Below, piece after piece: positions 14,517 through 21,636 of a stretch of 64,000 nucleotides of DNA. Location: assembly GCF_014861485.1 (NCBI RefSeq), contig NZ_JACZHT010000001.1:1-64000 (forward strand). Direction: 5' to 3'. The notes beneath the pieces are model-generated. The model was not told where the DNA came from. It worked only from the letters and a program-made list of their open reading frames with translations, and searched no databases. This DNA comes from Phaeovibrio sulfidiphilus (GTDB lineage Bacteria > Pseudomonadota > Alphaproteobacteria > Rhodospirillales > Rhodospirillaceae). The position numbers and the translations under genes were made by a program. Each line of letters starts with the position of its first letter. Position 1 is the first letter of the stretch.

Positions 14517-15506
14517 ATGACCATGACTTCAGGCCCTTCCGACCCCACCGGACCGTCCGGCCCCGCCCCCGGGGGCGCGCCTGCGGCCACGTCCGGGGGC
14601 GCCCCGGCTCACGGTGACGACGCGTTCCGGGCGGTGTGTGCCTCCGGCCTGCCTGTGAGCGGATCCGAGGCCTCGGATACCACCATCCTCACCCACCGGG
14701 CCCTCGAGGCCATCAACCACGCCGCCTTGCGCATCGGCCAGATCCTGGCCCAGAGCGGTGCCCACACCGCCGTGGTGCGCGAGAACGTCACCGCCATTGC
14801 CCGCAGCATGGGCGCCGACGGCGTGGACCTTCGGGTGGGCTATGCCTCCCTGACCCTGACCCTGCGCCACGACCGGAACTCCATCACCCGCATGACCGCG
14901 GTCGGCCCCCAGGGCGTGAACCAGCGGCTGGAGGACTCGCTTCGGGCCCTCGTGCGCCGGGTGCTGGACGGCGAGGATCTGACCCCCGTCGCCCTGCTGG
15001 CGGAAATCGACCGCATCGAGCGGGAGACGCGGCGCTATCCCCTGTGGGTGACCTCCCTTGCCGTGGGGGCGGCGTGCGCCGCGTTCTGCGTCCTGCTCCA
15101 GGGCGACCTGGCCACGGTGCTCGCGGTTCTGCCGGTGGCCACCGCGGCCCAGGCGATCCGGGCCGTCCTGAAGCGACGCCACTTCAACGACTATCTGTCC
15201 ATCTTGCTGCTGGCCTTCACCTCGTGCCTGGGGGCGACGCTTCTTGCGAGCCTGTTCGGGTCTGCAACACCCGGGACCGCCATGATCGGCCCGACCCTGC
15301 TGCTGGTCCCCGGTGTCCCCGCCATCAACGGGCTGGCCGACGTCCTGGAGGGGCGCCCCACCCTGGGCGCGGCCCGGCTGACCGTCGTGGCCATGGTCAT
15401 TGTCTTCCTGGCCATCGGGGTCTGGAACGCGGCCTTCCTTCTGGAGGCCGACGCCTTTCTCGGCACCTGGATGGCGCCGGTGGAGCAGGGAGCCCCGGCA
15501 CCGTGA
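14517..15506 (+). CDS. threonine/serine exporter family, large subunit (ThrE N-terminal domain; 329 aa)
   Basis: Inner-membrane protein of the ThrE/YjjP type (DUF1212). The first ~45 residues are Pro/Ser/Gly-rich linker; residues about 50-170 are the cytosolic domain, with the characteristic LRIGQILAQSGAHTAVVRENV; about five hydrophobic helices follow. Its stop codon overlaps the start of the next gene (TGATG), which encodes the complementary small membrane domain. In Corynebacterium ThrE the two parts are one chain, whereas here they are split, as in YjjP/YjjB. Transport of threonine or serine is inferred from the family; YjjP/YjjB itself exports succinate, so the substrate is open. Confidence 0.82.
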   Translation: MTMTSGPSDPTGPSGPAPGGAPAATSGGAPAHGDDAFRAVCASGLPVSGSEASDTTILTHRALEAINHAALRIGQILAQSGAHTAVVRENVTAIARSMGADGVDLRVGYASLTLTLRHDRNSITRMTAVGPQGVNQRLEDSLRALVRRVLDGEDLTPVALLAEIDRIERETRRYPLWVTSLAVGAACAAFCVLLQGDLATVLAVLPVATAAQAIRAVLKRRHFNDYLSILLLAFTSCLGATLLASLFGSATPGTAMIGPTLLLVPGVPAINGLADVLEGRPTLGAARLTVVAMVIVFLAIGVWNAAFLLEADAFLGTWMAPVEQGAPAP

Positions 15507-15991
15507 TGACCTCTCCCCTTGTTCAGGCGCTGCTGGCGCCCGAGTTCGCCCTGCACCTTGCGGCCGGAGGTGTGGCCGCCGCCGGGTTCGGCGTGCTGTT
15601 CAACTTCGCGCCCCGGTCCCTGCTCTGGTGCCTGGCCATGGGGGTTCTGGCGGTGGGGGTGCGCAAGATCGCCCTGTCGTCAGGCCTGGCCCTTGAGGGC
15701 GCGTCCCTTCTGGCAGGAATCGCGGTGGGCGTGGCCGTCCAGATCCCCCACCGGAAGCTGGGGCTCACCCGGGCCGCCCTGGCGGTGGCCGGATGCATCC
15801 CGCTTGTGCCCGGGGGTTTTATCGCCCGCGCCATCATCGGGCTGTTCACCCTGACGACCCGACCGCCGGACCCGGCCTTCGTGGCGGTGGTTTTGCATGA
15901 TTTTCTGGCCGCGGTCTTCACGCTGGCCGCCCTCGGGGTGGGGGTGTCCCTGTCGCTTCAGGTCTTCCGCCGCCGGGGCCTTGATCTCTAG
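15506..15991 (+). CDS. threonine/serine exporter family, small subunit (ThrE C-terminal / YjjB-like; 161 aa)
   Basis: A short membrane protein of about five helices matching the C-terminal half of ThrE (DUF3815). The ATG at 15506 shares its A with the TGA of the preceding gene, so translation is probably coupled. The PLVPGGFIARAIIG segment resembles the conserved Pro-Gly-rich motif of the family, also visible as LLVPGVPAING in the large subunit. The two proteins should form one exporter complex. The gene ends convergently with the photosynthesis operon. Confidence 0.8.
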   Translation: MTSPLVQALLAPEFALHLAAGGVAAAGFGVLFNFAPRSLLWCLAMGVLAVGVRKIALSSGLALEGASLLAGIAVGVAVQIPHRKLGLTRAALAVAGCIPLVPGGFIARAIIGLFTLTTRPPDPAFVAVVLHDFLAAVFTLAALGVGVSLSLQVFRRRGLDL

Positions 15992-16106
15992 ACCCGGACC
16001 GGAGGGACAAGGGCCGGGGTCATGCGAGGGCCCGGTTGCCGGGAGGCGCGGGCGGACACGGGGGGACAAAGAGAGGACGGGGGGCGAAGCCGCGGGTTTC
16101 CTGCCA

Positions 16107-16140
16107 CAAAAACACGGCCACCCTGTCCGGGACACGGTGG
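16107..16140 (-). terminator. candidate terminator of the photosynthesis operon
   Basis: On the minus strand CCACC-x-TGTCC pairs with GGACA-x-GGTGG (16140-16118), and a TTTTT run follows after 5 bases (16112-16108). It lies about 110 bases after the last stop codon of the operon. Confidence 0.5.
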
Positions 16141-16248
16141 TGTGCGCGGCGGAATGCGCGGTCCCGGCTGTGGGACACGGAGCGTGAGGGGCGAGCCGCC
16201 CCCCACTGTGTCTGTCCGCGCGCCGGCCTCGCGGCGCACCGCAAAGAC

Positions 16249-17691
16249 CTACCAGCGCACCGCAAAGACGCAGGCCGAGTCTCCGCGCGCCGCACAGGCG
16301 TGCTCGGTCACCCGGGACTGGGGGTGGACCAGAACCCGGAACAGGGTCTCGAAGGTGGCGGCGTAATAGACGCACGAGGCGCCCGAGCCTCCGGCCGCCT
16401 CCCGGGCCAGGGGCGAGTCCTCGATGGTCAGGGTCCAGGGCGAGCCCGCCTTCCACGAGAACCGGCCCGTGCCGGTGAACGTCCAGGCATTGCGGGAAAT
16501 GGCGCTCAGCAGGATGCGCGCGGCCAGGGGCGGCGGCAGCCGCTTCAGAAGCCACGAGACGGACTTGGGAATCCGGTTTTCCAGAAGATACTCGGCGGTG
16601 GTCTCGCCCGCGCGGCGCATGACCTGCTCGCACACAGCCGGATCCAGAACCTCGCGCAGAGCCCGGTGGAGGGCAATGACCTCGCCCTCGGGGATCATCT
16701 TCTCGGGAAGCGCGACCAGGTAGCCCGCAAGCCCCGCCTTCTCGAAAACCTGCCGGATGTCGTCCGGGCTGGCCAGAGCCTCGAGCGCCCTGCGCACCTG
16801 AATCACCGAGTTGGGGCCAATCCGGCCGCTCATTTCCAGCTTCTGCGATGACATGATTTTTTGCCTCTCTTCATGAAACGCCGCCACATCGCCCTTCAAC
16901 TCGTCACGGGCCCGGTGGGACACCAGGCCCCACTTCCAGAGAGTCTCCGAGGAGAACGGTAAAATCAGGAACCAGTGCTCCAGAACGCCGAGCGCGGTCA
17001 GGGTTGCAAGAAAAACGTAAAAGGCCGTCGCGGCCGGAAAGTCCGCCGGGGGCGCGGCCGCAGCCGAGCCCGCGCTCCCCACCAGCCAGGCAAGAACCAT
17101 GGTGGCGGCGGTCACAACGAAGGGGAACAGGAAGTTCACCGGACGGCACAGGAAATAGGTTTTCAGGTATTCAAGGTGCGGCGGCAGGAAGCTCTCCGAC
17201 AGATTGCGGGCCCCCAGGAACAGGTTCAGCTTCGCCGACAGCCGCATGCCCCACAGGATGACGAAGGTCCACAGGGCCGTGTCGTTGGGCTGGCCCCAGG
17301 TGAGCACCACCAGGACCAGGAAGGTCAGGACGATCGCGATCTCGTGGTAGAGGATGGTCTGGGTTCCGTAGCGGAACCGGGCCCAGCCGGTGGCGTCCGC
17401 CGGACAGCTGGAGCGCCGCGGCCCCGTGATGTAGCCAAACAGGAACACGATCTCGTTCCAGCCCCAGACCAGCAGGCCACAGGTGAAGGCGCAGTACACG
17501 GCCCCAAGCGAGGTCAGGGACGCGGTCGCCTGAATCCCGTACAGGGACACGAGCATCACAGCGGTGGCCGCAAGAAGGGTCAGCGGGTAGGTGCGCCGGG
17601 GCAGCCCATCCAGAAAGAGGATCGCCCCGGTGGAGAACCACCAGGTGAACAGGACAAACAGAACGGGAAACAGAAAATCGGTCAGAATCAT
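16249..17691 (-). CDS. puhE-bchJ: fused PuhE (photosynthetic complex assembly protein 2) - BchJ (V4R, vinyl reductase-associated) protein
   Basis: A single uninterrupted 480-residue frame joins two photosynthesis proteins. Residues 1-~275 are PuhE/DUF3623: polytopic membrane protein with WWFSTGAILFLDGLPR, LVWGWNEIVFLFGYITGPRR and RLSAKLNLFLGARNLSESFLPPHL. Residues ~287-480 are BchJ with a V4R-type domain: IGPNSVIQVRRALEA, GETTAEYLLENRIP and the C-terminal Cys-containing VTEHACAARGDSACVF region. PuhE helps assemble the reaction-centre/LH1 core; BchJ is associated with 8-vinyl reduction and substrate delivery in bacteriochlorophyll synthesis. At the junction, AGAGAGG (16870-16864) stands 9 bases before an in-frame ATG (16854), so free BchJ might also be made by internal initiation. 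It is the last gene of the operon. Domain calls are by family resemblance; the fusion is seen directly. Confidence 0.88.
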   Translation of the reverse strand: MILTDFLFPVLFVLFTWWFSTGAILFLDGLPRRTYPLTLLAATAVMLVSLYGIQATASLTSLGAVYCAFTCGLLVWGWNEIVFLFGYITGPRRSSCPADATGWARFRYGTQTILYHEIAIVLTFLVLVVLTWGQPNDTALWTFVILWGMRLSAKLNLFLGARNLSESFLPPHLEYLKTYFLCRPVNFLFPFVVTAATMVLAWLVGSAGSAAAAPPADFPAATAFYVFLATLTALGVLEHWFLILPFSSETLWKWGLVSHRARDELKGDVAAFHEERQKIMSSQKLEMSGRIGPNSVIQVRRALEALASPDDIRQVFEKAGLAGYLVALPEKMIPEGEVIALHRALREVLDPAVCEQVMRRAGETTAEYLLENRIPKSVSWLLKRLPPPLAARILLSAISRNAWTFTGTGRFSWKAGSPWTLTIEDSPLAREAAGGSGASCVYYAATFETLFRVLVHPQSRVTEHACAARGDSACVFAVRW

Positions 17692-17817
17692 GGAAGCCGG
17701 GAGCGCCTGGGGACAGTCGGAGGGGCGAGGAAAGCGGACGCGGTGCGGGGGGTCAGGGGCCGTCCCCCGCCGGCTGCGGGAAGGCCGCGCGGTCTCCCGG
17801 AAGGCTGCCGGAGCCGG

Positions 17818-18309
17818 TCATGGCCGCCCCCCTGCCGGGGTCGCCTGCGCATCACGGGCGCTGCGGGCCGCCTCATAAATTCGCAGAAGCTGTCCCGCCG
17901 TCGCGGGGCCGAACGCTGCGGCCTCCAGCTTCAGGGGGGTGCCCGGGTCCACCACCATCAGGCGGTGATCCTCGGTCATCTGGAAGCGGTAGGGCGCATC
18001 CAGGGGCACATCGTTCATGCGCCGGGTGCGCCGGTGGCTGGTGGTCATGCCGGTGAGGAAACCCGTATTGCCGGGCTCGATGGTCAGGAGCAGGGGGCCG
18101 TCACGCTCCAGGGCGATGCCGAGCGCCTCGTTCTCGAGCGACAGGATGTACACGTCCACGAAATCGGCAACCGGGCTGTCGTACTCCGCCGCCGGGTCAT
18201 AGCCCGTCAGGCGCGCGCCGATCGCAAGGGCAAGGGCCGCAATCACGACGACCGCGATCACCCAGACCGCCACTGGAGGGAAAGGAGGACGACGACGGGA
18301 CCGGTCCAT
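17818..18309 (-). CDS. puhC: photosynthetic complex assembly protein PuhC (163 aa)
   Basis: Membrane-anchored protein needed for efficient reaction-centre/LH1 assembly in purple bacteria. One transmembrane helix near the N-terminus (about residues 12-32: VAVWVIAVVVIAALALAIGA) is followed by a periplasmic domain of ~130 residues containing LTIEPGNTGFLTGM and RRTRRMN, typical of the PuhC/TIGR03054 family. It lies between puhB and puhE as in other phototrophic alphaproteobacteria. The start is the ATG giving the basic MDRSRRRPP n-region. It stands 80 bases after puhB. Confidence 0.85.
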   Translation of the reverse strand: MDRSRRRPPFPPVAVWVIAVVVIAALALAIGARLTGYDPAAEYDSPVADFVDVYILSLENEALGIALERDGPLLLTIEPGNTGFLTGMTTSHRRTRRMNDVPLDAPYRFQMTEDHRLMVVDPGTPLKLEAAAFGPATAGQLLRIYEAARSARDAQATPAGGRP

Positions 18310-19109: not shown

Positions 19110-19850
19110 TTACCAGACCGTCTTCGTGTACAGACCGCCGCCGGAGAAGTAGCCGAGAATACGGTCTTCCTGACGGAGGGTGATGGTGCTGCCGCCGATC
19201 TTCGGCGCCGCATTGAAGTGCGCGCTGTCAACCGCCGAGACGTAAACCGTACGCTTCTTCGCGTCCAGAACGCCACGGGTGAAGGGCACCAGAACCGATC
19301 CGACCTGGTAGTAGCGGATCATGCATTCCGGCCGGTCGATCCACACGTCGGTGACCTCGCCCACGACGACACCGTCCGCCGCCACGACCTTCATGCCGCG
19401 GGGGTCCGGATCGTTCGGAGCCAGCCAGTACGTGGAATCGCTGGAAATCGGAATAATGCGGGGGCTGCCGTCCCACATGGGATCGGGAATATCCGCACGC
19501 TCGGTCCAGGCTGCGGGACCCACACCGTCAATGATGGGATCGCCCGTCGGGATCAGCGGAGAACCCGCCCAGCGCCGCGACGGAGCGGCCTTGACCGGAC
19601 GCGTATCGCGCTCGTCATTCGGAACCGTGTAGGTGCGGTTCCGGGCAAGGTGGAAGGTCTTCGGGTCGCACATGGCGTGCGGGCCCATGGCCTCCAGCTC
19701 ACCGGAGAGATCGTGCTCGAGAGGATAGCCCTCGCGACGGTCCTCCATGCGCAGATAGACGATCAGCCAGAAAACAAAGGTAACGAAAAAGATCGCGGTA
19801 ACGAGCGTTGCTACGTCAAAGTTACCGACGAGATGGCCAACATAATTCAT
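19110..19850 (-). CDS. puhA: photosynthetic reaction centre H subunit (246 aa)
   Basis: Caps the cytoplasmic side of the L/M reaction centre and controls proton delivery to QB. One transmembrane helix (about residues 13-35, LVTAIFFVTFVFWLIVYLR) is followed by a cytoplasmic domain with REGYPLE, FHLA, GDPIIDGVGPAAW and the PRC-barrel-like DVWIDRPECMIRYYQV. The start at 19850 is supported by AGGAGG upstream; the frame is open 47 codons further but the added part is not protein-like. It lies 22 bases after lhaA. Confidence 0.97.
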   Translation of the reverse strand: MNYVGHLVGNFDVATLVTAIFFVTFVFWLIVYLRMEDRREGYPLEHDLSGELEAMGPHAMCDPKTFHLARNRTYTVPNDERDTRPVKAAPSRRWAGSPLIPTGDPIIDGVGPAAWTERADIPDPMWDGSPRIIPISSDSTYWLAPNDPDPRGMKVVAADGVVVGEVTDVWIDRPECMIRYYQVGSVLVPFTRGVLDAKKRTVYVSAVDSAHFNAAPKIGGSTITLRQEDRILGYFSGGGLYTKTVW

Positions 19851-19872
19851 GGCATAGCCTCCTGAAGTGCGC

Positions 19873-21636
19873 CTAGCCCGGAAGCCCGGAGAGCCCGAAA
19901 CGGCCCCGTGGCAGGCCTGTCCCGCCAGATCCCTGGCGAGCAAGGGGTAGGATGACCACCACTGTGGCAATAAGCAATACAATTTCGACAAAATAGACGC
20001 ACAGGAACCCGCCGTAAGCCGCGGCCTTCGGGCTCAGCATCAGGGACAGGATGCCCTCAAAGACCCACTGGAACACACCGCCCAGAAGGGTCGCGCCGCC
20101 CATGGCCGTGGCCTGCACGGCGCCCCAGGCGCCCAGGGTCAGGCCCGCATCCCAGTCCTCGGCCAGGGACATGGCCGCCGTCAGGGTGCCGACGGCGAAC
20201 AGGCCGCCGCCCAGCCCCACCAGGATCGAGCCCAGGTAGTACAGCATGGCGGACGAGAGCAGGCCCGAGAGGATCACGCAGACAAAGGCCGGAATCCCCA
20301 CCACAAGCCCGATGGTGGACAGCTGGAGCGGACCGAATCCGCTCTCCAGGACCTTGGCGGACAAGCCGAAACCCAGAAGCGAGCCGAAGGCGAAGAACGC
20401 CGTCAGCAGCGTTGTGGCCGAGACCTTCAGGTCCAGAACCTTGCCGCCGAAGGGCTCCAGCAGGATGTCCTGCATGGAAAACGCCGCCGTGCCCAGGAAG
20501 ATCGAGAGCAGAAGGGTCTTCAGGTAGGGCTGTTCGGAGAACCGGGCCCAGGCCTCGCGGAAATCGGGCTCGGGGGCCTCGTCATCGGGCCGGATGCGGC
20601 CCGGATCCCGGGGCTCCTGCTTCCAGAGCGCCACCAGGTTCAGGATCAGGGTCAGCACGCCCACGGACTGGATGGTCCGGATCAGGGCCGTCTCGCTGAA
20701 GGGCGAGAGCATGTAGCTGAAGAAGAAGCTGGCCAGGATCATGCCCACCAGCAGCATGACGTACATCAGCGCCACCACCCGGGGGCGGCGGGATTCGTCA
20801 GCCAGATCGGTGGCCAGCGCCAGACCCGCGGTCTGGGTGGTGTGGAAGCCGAGCCCCACCATCAGGAAGGCCGCAGCCCCGCCCAGATAGCCGCCCAGAA
20901 GGCCGTAGGAGGAGTTCCCCTCCCCCGTCAGCAGCATGAGCGCAAAGGGCATCAGGGCCAGCCCCAGGAACTGGGACAAGGTGCCAAGCCAGATGAACGG
21001 CACCCGCCGCCAGCCGATAAAGGACCGGAAATGGTCGGACTTGAAGCCGATCAGGATCCGGAACGGGGCGAACAGGATGGGCAGCGCCACCATGATGGCG
21101 ATGGCGAAAATGGGGATATTCATCTCCACGTTCATGACCCGGTTCAGGGTTCCCGTCAGGAGAACCATGGCCATGCCCACAGAGATCTGGAACAGGGACA
21201 GCCGCAGAAGCCGGTTCAGGGGCAGTCCGTCGGAGGCCGCGTCCGCAAACGGCAGATACTTGGGCGCAAGCGTGCCCCAGGCCGAGGCCAGGGTCCGCCC
21301 GGTGCGGGCCGCCCCGTCCACCAGGTGGTCTTTCTGCTCGAATCCCTCGCGGGCGGGCAGCTGGACAAAATCGGCGGCGGACTCGGCTTTCGAGGCCCAG
21401 CCCTCCAGTTTCTTCTGGAAGCGGTCAAGGACACCGCCCCCGGCGGCGCCCTCCCCGTCCCCGGGGGCTCCGTCGTCCGCCCCCGCGCTGCCGGACTGCA
21501 CACGTCCCGCCATATCGCCCGCCTTGCGGACAACGTTTTTCCACAGCGCCCCTGACTTCTCCCCCAGGTCCTGGCCCAGAGTCCCAAGTTTCGCGCGCCA
21601 TTCGGGCGTATCAGTGTCGTCCGGCTTGTTGGTCAT
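19873..21636 (-). CDS. lhaA: LH1 assembly protein LhaA (PucC/BCD family, MFS-like), 587 aa
   Basis: A twelve-helix membrane protein that assists bacteriochlorophyll delivery and LH1 assembly. The family region begins near residue 117 with LAPKYLPFADAASDGLPLNRLLRLSLFQISVGMA and includes the loops GFKSDHFRSFIGWRRVPFIW and GLGFHTTQTAGLALATDLA. The first ~115 residues are an extra hydrophilic segment rich in Gly, Ala, Asp and Lys with amphipathic stretches, making this protein clearly longer than the usual ~480. The start overlaps the bchM stop (ATGA), so translation is coupled and an upstream start is unlikely; a downstream start inside the extension cannot be excluded. PucC is an alternative family name, but position next to puhA favours LhaA. 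Confidence 0.93.
   Translation of the reverse strand: MTNKPDDTDTPEWRAKLGTLGQDLGEKSGALWKNVVRKAGDMAGRVQSGSAGADDGAPGDGEGAAGGGVLDRFQKKLEGWASKAESAADFVQLPAREGFEQKDHLVDGAARTGRTLASAWGTLAPKYLPFADAASDGLPLNRLLRLSLFQISVGMAMVLLTGTLNRVMNVEMNIPIFAIAIMVALPILFAPFRILIGFKSDHFRSFIGWRRVPFIWLGTLSQFLGLALMPFALMLLTGEGNSSYGLLGGYLGGAAAFLMVGLGFHTTQTAGLALATDLADESRRPRVVALMYVMLLVGMILASFFFSYMLSPFSETALIRTIQSVGVLTLILNLVALWKQEPRDPGRIRPDDEAPEPDFREAWARFSEQPYLKTLLLSIFLGTAAFSMQDILLEPFGGKVLDLKVSATTLLTAFFAFGSLLGFGLSAKVLESGFGPLQLSTIGLVVGIPAFVCVILSGLLSSAMLYYLGSILVGLGGGLFAVGTLTAAMSLAEDWDAGLTLGAWGAVQATAMGGATLLGGVFQWVFEGILSLMLSPKAAAYGGFLCVYFVEIVLLIATVVVILPLARQGSGGTGLPRGRFGLSGLPG

Follow-up and report, generated by a model that had tools for sequence, protein, structure and literature searches.

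Some bacterial genes give rise to two products from a single reading frame by means of an in-frame internal start, with cheA, clpB, and infB as examples. PuhE is recognized by its family profiles (TIGR03055, and DUF3623 or PF12291) and by its place in the puh operon, and BchJ is recognized by TIGR02019 and a V4R domain. BchJ was first considered to be a vinyl reductase; passages of two papers state that 8-vinyl reduction persists when the gene is inactivated, and discuss a role as carrier, scaffold, or chaperone (PMC4432870, PMC7242693). One of these passages cites the suggestion that BchJ acts between Mg-chelatase and BchM (PMC4432870).

In Phaeovibrio sulfidiphilus, these two components occur within one protein. 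Its PuhE part is like known PuhE proteins in profile and in operon position, and differs from them by the addition of a C-terminal BchJ domain. The BchJ part has the complete profile, the three invariant cysteines, and the predicted H-NOX/Bet3-like fold of known BchJ proteins; it differs in being attached to a membrane protein and in having alanine in place of the cysteine of the PLCR motif. A long and a short product from one frame are proposed for puhE::bchJ, as in cheA, clpB, and infB, with the difference that the short product here would correspond to a formerly independent gene and that its start is predicted. No report of a PuhE-BchJ fusion was found in the titles and abstract beginnings of the open-access literature among the matches listed, and the words ‘fused’ and ‘fusion’ appear in neither PMC6052148 nor PMC11762602 (main text). 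The component families are known, and the combination of the fusion with an apparently kept start seems to be new.

The fused gene and its operon

The window analyzed here is a stretch of 64,000 nucleotides of P. sulfidiphilus DNA, and the features of the fused gene within it are collected in Table 1. An earlier note on this DNA had described a frame of 480 codons that encodes PuhE followed by a complete BchJ. The frame and both domains are as described, with the two NCBIfam profiles over their cut-offs, but it lies on the minus strand, from an ATG at 17691 down to 16249, and translation of the plus strand across this interval is interrupted by stops. In the 480-residue protein, Pfam places DUF3623 at residues 4-260 (316 bits) and V4R (PF02830) at residues 419-479 (42.1 bits, cut-off 31). 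The NCBIfam match to PuhE scores 274.9 bits (cut-off 164.05) and covers positions 2-245 of the 245 in the profile, and that to BchJ scores 177.9 bits (cut-off 74.3) over positions 1-188 of 188.

Table 1. Features of the puhE::bchJ gene, in coordinates of the window.
Feature	Position	Strand	Basis
puhE::bchJ fused ORF, 480 aa	16249..17691	-	ORF and Pfam/NCBIfam matches
PuhE domain, residues 9-256	16924..17667	-	TIGR03055 / PF12291
Inter-domain linker, residues 257-289	16825..16923	-	low model confidence
Shine-Dalgarno-like AGAGAGG	16864..16870	-	9 bases 5' of internal ATG; duplex -7.2 kcal/mol
Internal ATG in frame, probably the kept bchJ start (free BchJ of 201 aa)	16852..16854	-	joint start features
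Second in-frame ATG 5' of BchJ domain	16831..16833	-	poor start context
BchJ domain, residues 290-478	16258..16824	-	TIGR02019; V4R at 419-479
TAG stop codon of fusion	16249..16251	-	sequence

The gene is the last in a run on the same strand that consists of bchF, bchN, bchB, bchH, bchL, bchM, lhaA (of the PucC family), puhA, puhB, puhC, and puhE::bchJ, so that the PuhE part sits in the puh operon beside puhA, puhB, and puhC. A search of positions 15900-18000 found no sigma-70-like promoter, and the two terminator-like matches in the same interval are within the number expected from shuffled sequences (mean 1.4, sd 1.1).

Two side observations concern the neighboring genes. The longest puhA ORF (19110-19991) begins with a TTG (19991) that lies within the final part of lhaA (19873-21636); its PRCH domain starts only at residue 53, and for this reason the true puhA start is probably an internal ATG (MNYVGHL). 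On the plus strand, a ThrE-like exporter, apparently in two successive frames (14517-15506, and then a frame ending at 15991), converges on the end of puhE::bchJ; the first of these frames scores 28 bits, far under the cut-off of 550, and the second part was judged by eye.

Distribution and origin of the fusion

PuhE was found over cut-off in 12 of 73 genomes drawn from the family, 26 of 317 from the order, 27 of 385 from the class, and 31 of 398 from the phylum, which amounts to 75 genomes when each is counted once. BchJ was sought in 52 of these, with matches in all 12 of the family draw and in 18 of the 40 others. For the 23 genomes present only in the phylum draw, the analysis covered the PuhE frames, and one of them (G1010) was assessed by frame length alone (263 aa). 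The same 12 genomes of the family draw hold both PuhE and BchJ above cut-off, and a thirteenth BchJ match in that draw (G058) is far under it.

A PuhE::BchJ fusion is present in three of the 75 genomes. Besides Phaeovibrio (G000), these are Pararhodospirillum oryzae NBRC 107573 (G029), in which the fusion lies on contig NZ_BJZO01000011.1 and aligns with query residues 1-480, and a single-contig genome of 3,876,289 bases with the same genus code (G030), presumably that of P. photometricum. Both domains are complete and above cut-off in all three proteins, and each of the three genomes has a single PuhE match and a single BchJ match. The earlier note took the two genes to be separate in known phototrophs and proposed a search of relatives. 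Of the 75 PuhE genomes, 72 show no such fusion, including one (G033) whose puhE is truncated where its contig stops; Pararhodospirillum shares the fusion. PuhE is followed in frame by neither a BchJ nor a CobW match in 62 of the 75. Since puhE and bchJ are separate in 27 of the 30 genomes that have both, tethering is no general requirement.

The fused proteins of Phaeovibrio and Pararhodospirillum are 59-60% identical. The three fusions form one clade in a PuhE tree of 34 of the 75 genomes (support 100/99), and likewise in a BchJ tree (99/99) and a joint tree (100/99), each built from 15 of the 30 genomes that have the two genes. The gene order bchM-lhaA-puhA-puhB-puhC-puhE-bchJ is common to G037 (which we take to be Rhodospirillum rubrum), G171, and the single-contig Pararhodospirillum genome, with puhE and bchJ separate but adjacent in the first two. 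In a further genome (G039), puhE and bchJ share a frame, separated only by one TAA and a short spacer; the order upstream differs there, as only puhC, puhE, and bchJ were matched in the 11 kb fetched. The clade and the operon order fit a single event in a common ancestor, in which the stop was lost in frame.

Several other long frames were considered. In G596, G654, and G638, PuhE is located in the final part of a long open frame; these were not counted as fusions because no BchJ or CobW match occurs in the frame. The long BchJ frames of G344 (819) and G411 (698) match BchJ but neither of the other two queries, PuhE and CobW, and their upstream part looks, by eye, like a chance-open frame beside another gene.

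A probable internal start between the domains

An in-frame start codon with a ribosome-binding context is present between the domains. The earlier note had placed AGAGAGG nine bases before an in-frame ATG at 16854, and the sequence has exactly this arrangement (16870-16864 and 16854-16852). In each of the three fusions, an in-frame ATG remains 10-20 codons 5' of the BchJ motif RIGPN, and in four unfused relatives the nearest ATGs are 7-14 codons before this motif.

The junction ATGs were compared with a background of 1869 internal in-frame ATGs, drawn from 237 ORFs across 464 kb of the Phaeovibrio contig; the fused ORF and its six ATGs were left out. Shine-Dalgarno pairing alone is matched by 145 of the background ATGs for Phaeovibrio, 12 for P. 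oryzae, and 434 for G030. With pairing and low local structure taken together, a choice of features that was the analyst's own and was applied to all three species against the Phaeovibrio background, the numbers are one, none, and one of 1869. When the comparison is confined to the 231 ATGs in contexts that are at least 65% hydrophilic, the joint features are again matched by one, none, and one. A logistic start score with four features, trained on only 20 unambiguous starts (AUC 0.79), is matched by three (Phaeovibrio), none (P. oryzae), and seven (G030) of the 1869. The second ATG of G030 is matched in the joint features by 13 of 1869, and the second in-frame ATG of Phaeovibrio (16833) has 413 background ATGs that are as good.

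Native starts provide a scale for these ranks. Eight other genes of the run have starts that, on the joint measure, are matched by two (puhE) to 167 (bchN) of the 1869 background ATGs, and 10 of the 20 unambiguous starts are matched by fewer than 1%. Judged on this scale, the junction ATG appears no worse a start than the native ones. The ancestral bchJ start thus apparently survives in the fused gene, as the earlier note had supposed, and the same appears to hold in the two further species. There is no stop to separate the domains, and therefore translation of puhE must enter bchJ; free BchJ is the optional product, and the start context suggests that fused and free forms are probably both made.

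Linker, structure, and membrane side

The distance from LWKWG to RIGPN is 34, 41, and 50 codons in the three fusions. These hydrophilic linkers differ in length by 7 and 9 codons, yet remain in frame and without a stop. They have also diverged rapidly: between the two Pararhodospirillum genomes, dN is 0.55 for the linker compared with 0.10 for PuhE and 0.18 for BchJ. In neutral simulations with indels, 12-18% of runs keep the linker open, and without indels 41-53% do so. Retention of the open linker in three genomes therefore favors selection only weakly.

A model of the full-length protein, made from 14 alignment rows after removal of two BchJ-fragment rows with misplaced N-termini and the row of L091, has a mean pLDDT of 76.5 and a pTM of 0.52. 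PuhE has seven long predicted helices (residues 4-28, 32-56, 62-84, 102-131, 138-158, 188-212, and 218-242), and a further helix (248-281) runs into the linker, with pLDDT below 50 at residues 257-266 and 279-290. BchJ alone is modeled well (87.5). A Foldseek search with the BchJ model gave H-NOX proteins as the best matches (E 1e-5, TM about 0.5). VIA-align with the full-length model, a search dominated by the BchJ part, placed BcsD and Bet3/TRAPP first (Z about 12), followed by H-NOX (about 10). These likenesses, found with predicted models, are resemblances of fold and not of function. When the PuhE and BchJ parts were used as sequence queries against the PDB, nothing matched up to E 1.

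The positions of lysine and arginine point to the membrane side of the fused domain. Across 14 proteins, loops 1, 3, and 5 have on average 1.8, 3.2, and 3.9 such residues, and loops 2, 4, and 6 have 0.36, 0.36, and 0.14, although the counts of loops 3 and 5 are partly an effect of length because these loops are also the longest. By the positive-inside rule, this distribution predicts a cytoplasmic C-terminus for PuhE. The 14 residues that directly follow the seventh helix (243-256) carry few charges, with a mean of 0.5 lysine or arginine.

Three cysteines that are invariant across the 15 BchJ proteins compared are kept in the Phaeovibrio fusion. As a separate observation, the PLCR cysteine of many BchJ proteins is replaced by alanine at 16405-16407; the g15 relatives and G344 lack this cysteine as well.

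A second partner at the same end of PuhE

The picture of the fusion given in the earlier note has to be widened, as PuhE has a second recurrent partner at its C-terminus. In nine of the 75 genomes (G031, G032, G034, G035, G036, G002, G647, G414, and G1048), this end of PuhE is fused in frame to a CobW-type GTPase. The truncated G033 is a genus-mate of five of these and was left uncounted. The same arrangement occurs in named contigs, for example those of Rhodovibrio sodomensis (L079:3971-5905) and Lichenicoccus roseus; the loci with this fusion also include L072, L071, L073, L074, L076, L077, L078, L105, and L007.

In the GTPase part, PF02492 was found in all four of the proteins scanned and PF07683 in three of them. 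A wider comparison of 21 rows comprised 17 distinct proteins, one of which (L081) ends at the end of its stretch. The P-loop is present in all 17, the CxCC motif is absent in five (those of G031, G032, G034, G035, and G036, g15), and some have His-rich stretches. In PuhE::CobW-type GTPase as in PuhE::BchJ, one continuous frame carries the added domain at the C-terminus of PuhE. In the GTPase fusion, a linker of about 21 residues leads to the P-loop; 14 of the 17 proteins have no methionine in it, one has a linker methionine, and two have one at the end of PuhE. As most linkers lack a methionine, this fusion is generally without a kept internal start, unlike PuhE::BchJ. The occurrence of a GTPase at this end of PuhE agrees with the cytoplasmic placement predicted above.

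One of the genomes with the GTPase fusion (G002) also has two adjacent BchJ matches (L101:16171-17069), of which one is complete and the other comprises only the C-terminal half, which suggests a partial duplication of bchJ.

Alternative explanations

Different explanations can be given for a continuous frame with a start-like junction. An artefact of sequencing or assembly, which the earlier note had itself named as a possible refutation, would join two separate genes, and a run of six A does adjoin the junction. The Phaeovibrio genome, that of strain DSM 23193, is an Illumina assembly of 2,585,463 bases in 31 contigs, one of 750,242 bases, and it was obtained at 100x coverage (PMC7714858). 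The same fusion is found in P. oryzae NBRC 107573 and in the single-contig Pararhodospirillum genome, and these homologous fusions in two other assemblies refute the artefact, to which we give almost no weight. The fusion could also be a nearly neutral accident, in which drift removed the stop, the cell tolerates the tail, a free form or proteolysis supplies BchJ function, and the tether has no role. The separate genes of the other 27 genomes, the fast-evolving linkers, and the fraction of simulated linkers that stay open despite indels all count in its favor. It accounts less well for a fusion kept in both genera over the long divergence that their protein identities indicate, and for changes in linker length that are all in frame and free of stops; furthermore, the recurrence of another fusion at the same end of PuhE suggests a permissive or favored site. 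We therefore regard such an accident as unlikely.

It might instead be that full-length PuhE-BchJ is the sole acting form, with the internal ATG and the Shine-Dalgarno-like stretch either vestigial or by-products of a hydrophilic, A-rich linker. Ribosomes that start on puhE continue into bchJ without a stop in their way, the linkers are indeed hydrophilic, and pairing alone falls short of extreme in two of the three species (Phaeovibrio and G030). However, an in-frame ATG near the presumed BchJ start is kept at all three diverged junctions, and the joint start features are rare even against hydrophilic contexts, so that a purely fused product seems to us improbable. A gene with two products, one of them BchJ held by PuhE at the cytoplasmic face and the other a free BchJ, with a fusion that goes back to one ancestral loss of the stop in frame, is in our judgment the probable explanation on the evidence of sequence.

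Proposed roles and implications

The joined frame, its single clade, the lack of a second copy of either domain, and the start-like junctions in all three genomes are established from their sequences. In the proposed explanation with two products, the ancestor of Phaeovibrio and Pararhodospirillum would have lost the in-frame stop between adjacent puhE and bchJ genes and kept the start of bchJ. One product would be PuhE-BchJ, a membrane protein of seven helices with BchJ behind a variable linker of 34-50 residues and predicted to be in the cytoplasm. The other would be a soluble, free BchJ of about 201 residues from the internal start. Tethering would keep a protein that handles tetrapyrroles at the membrane, where PuhE takes part in assembling the core complex and in controlling bacteriochlorophyll, and free BchJ would serve the soluble enzymes of the pathway. 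The earlier idea that the tether couples pigment synthesis to assembly of the core complex is plausible in view of the roles described in the literature and the predicted topology.

A broader and more tentative possibility, which we hold to be doubtful at present, is that PuhE is a membrane dock for proteins that handle tetrapyrroles or metals, such as BchJ and the CobW-type metallochaperone GTPase, and that in Phaeovibrio and Pararhodospirillum internal initiation sets the ratio of docked to free BchJ. Recruitment to such a dock would be covalent in lineages with a fusion, and presumably by non-covalent contact in others.

A natural fusion that is kept in two genera is genomic evidence that PuhE and BchJ work at one location, and it suggests PuhE as the site of BchJ action. 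It predicts an interaction between the two proteins where they are separate, and the recurrent fusion of PuhE to the GTPase points in the same direction. If the internal start is indeed kept, a single gene would supply both a tethered and a free pigment carrier in these bacteria.
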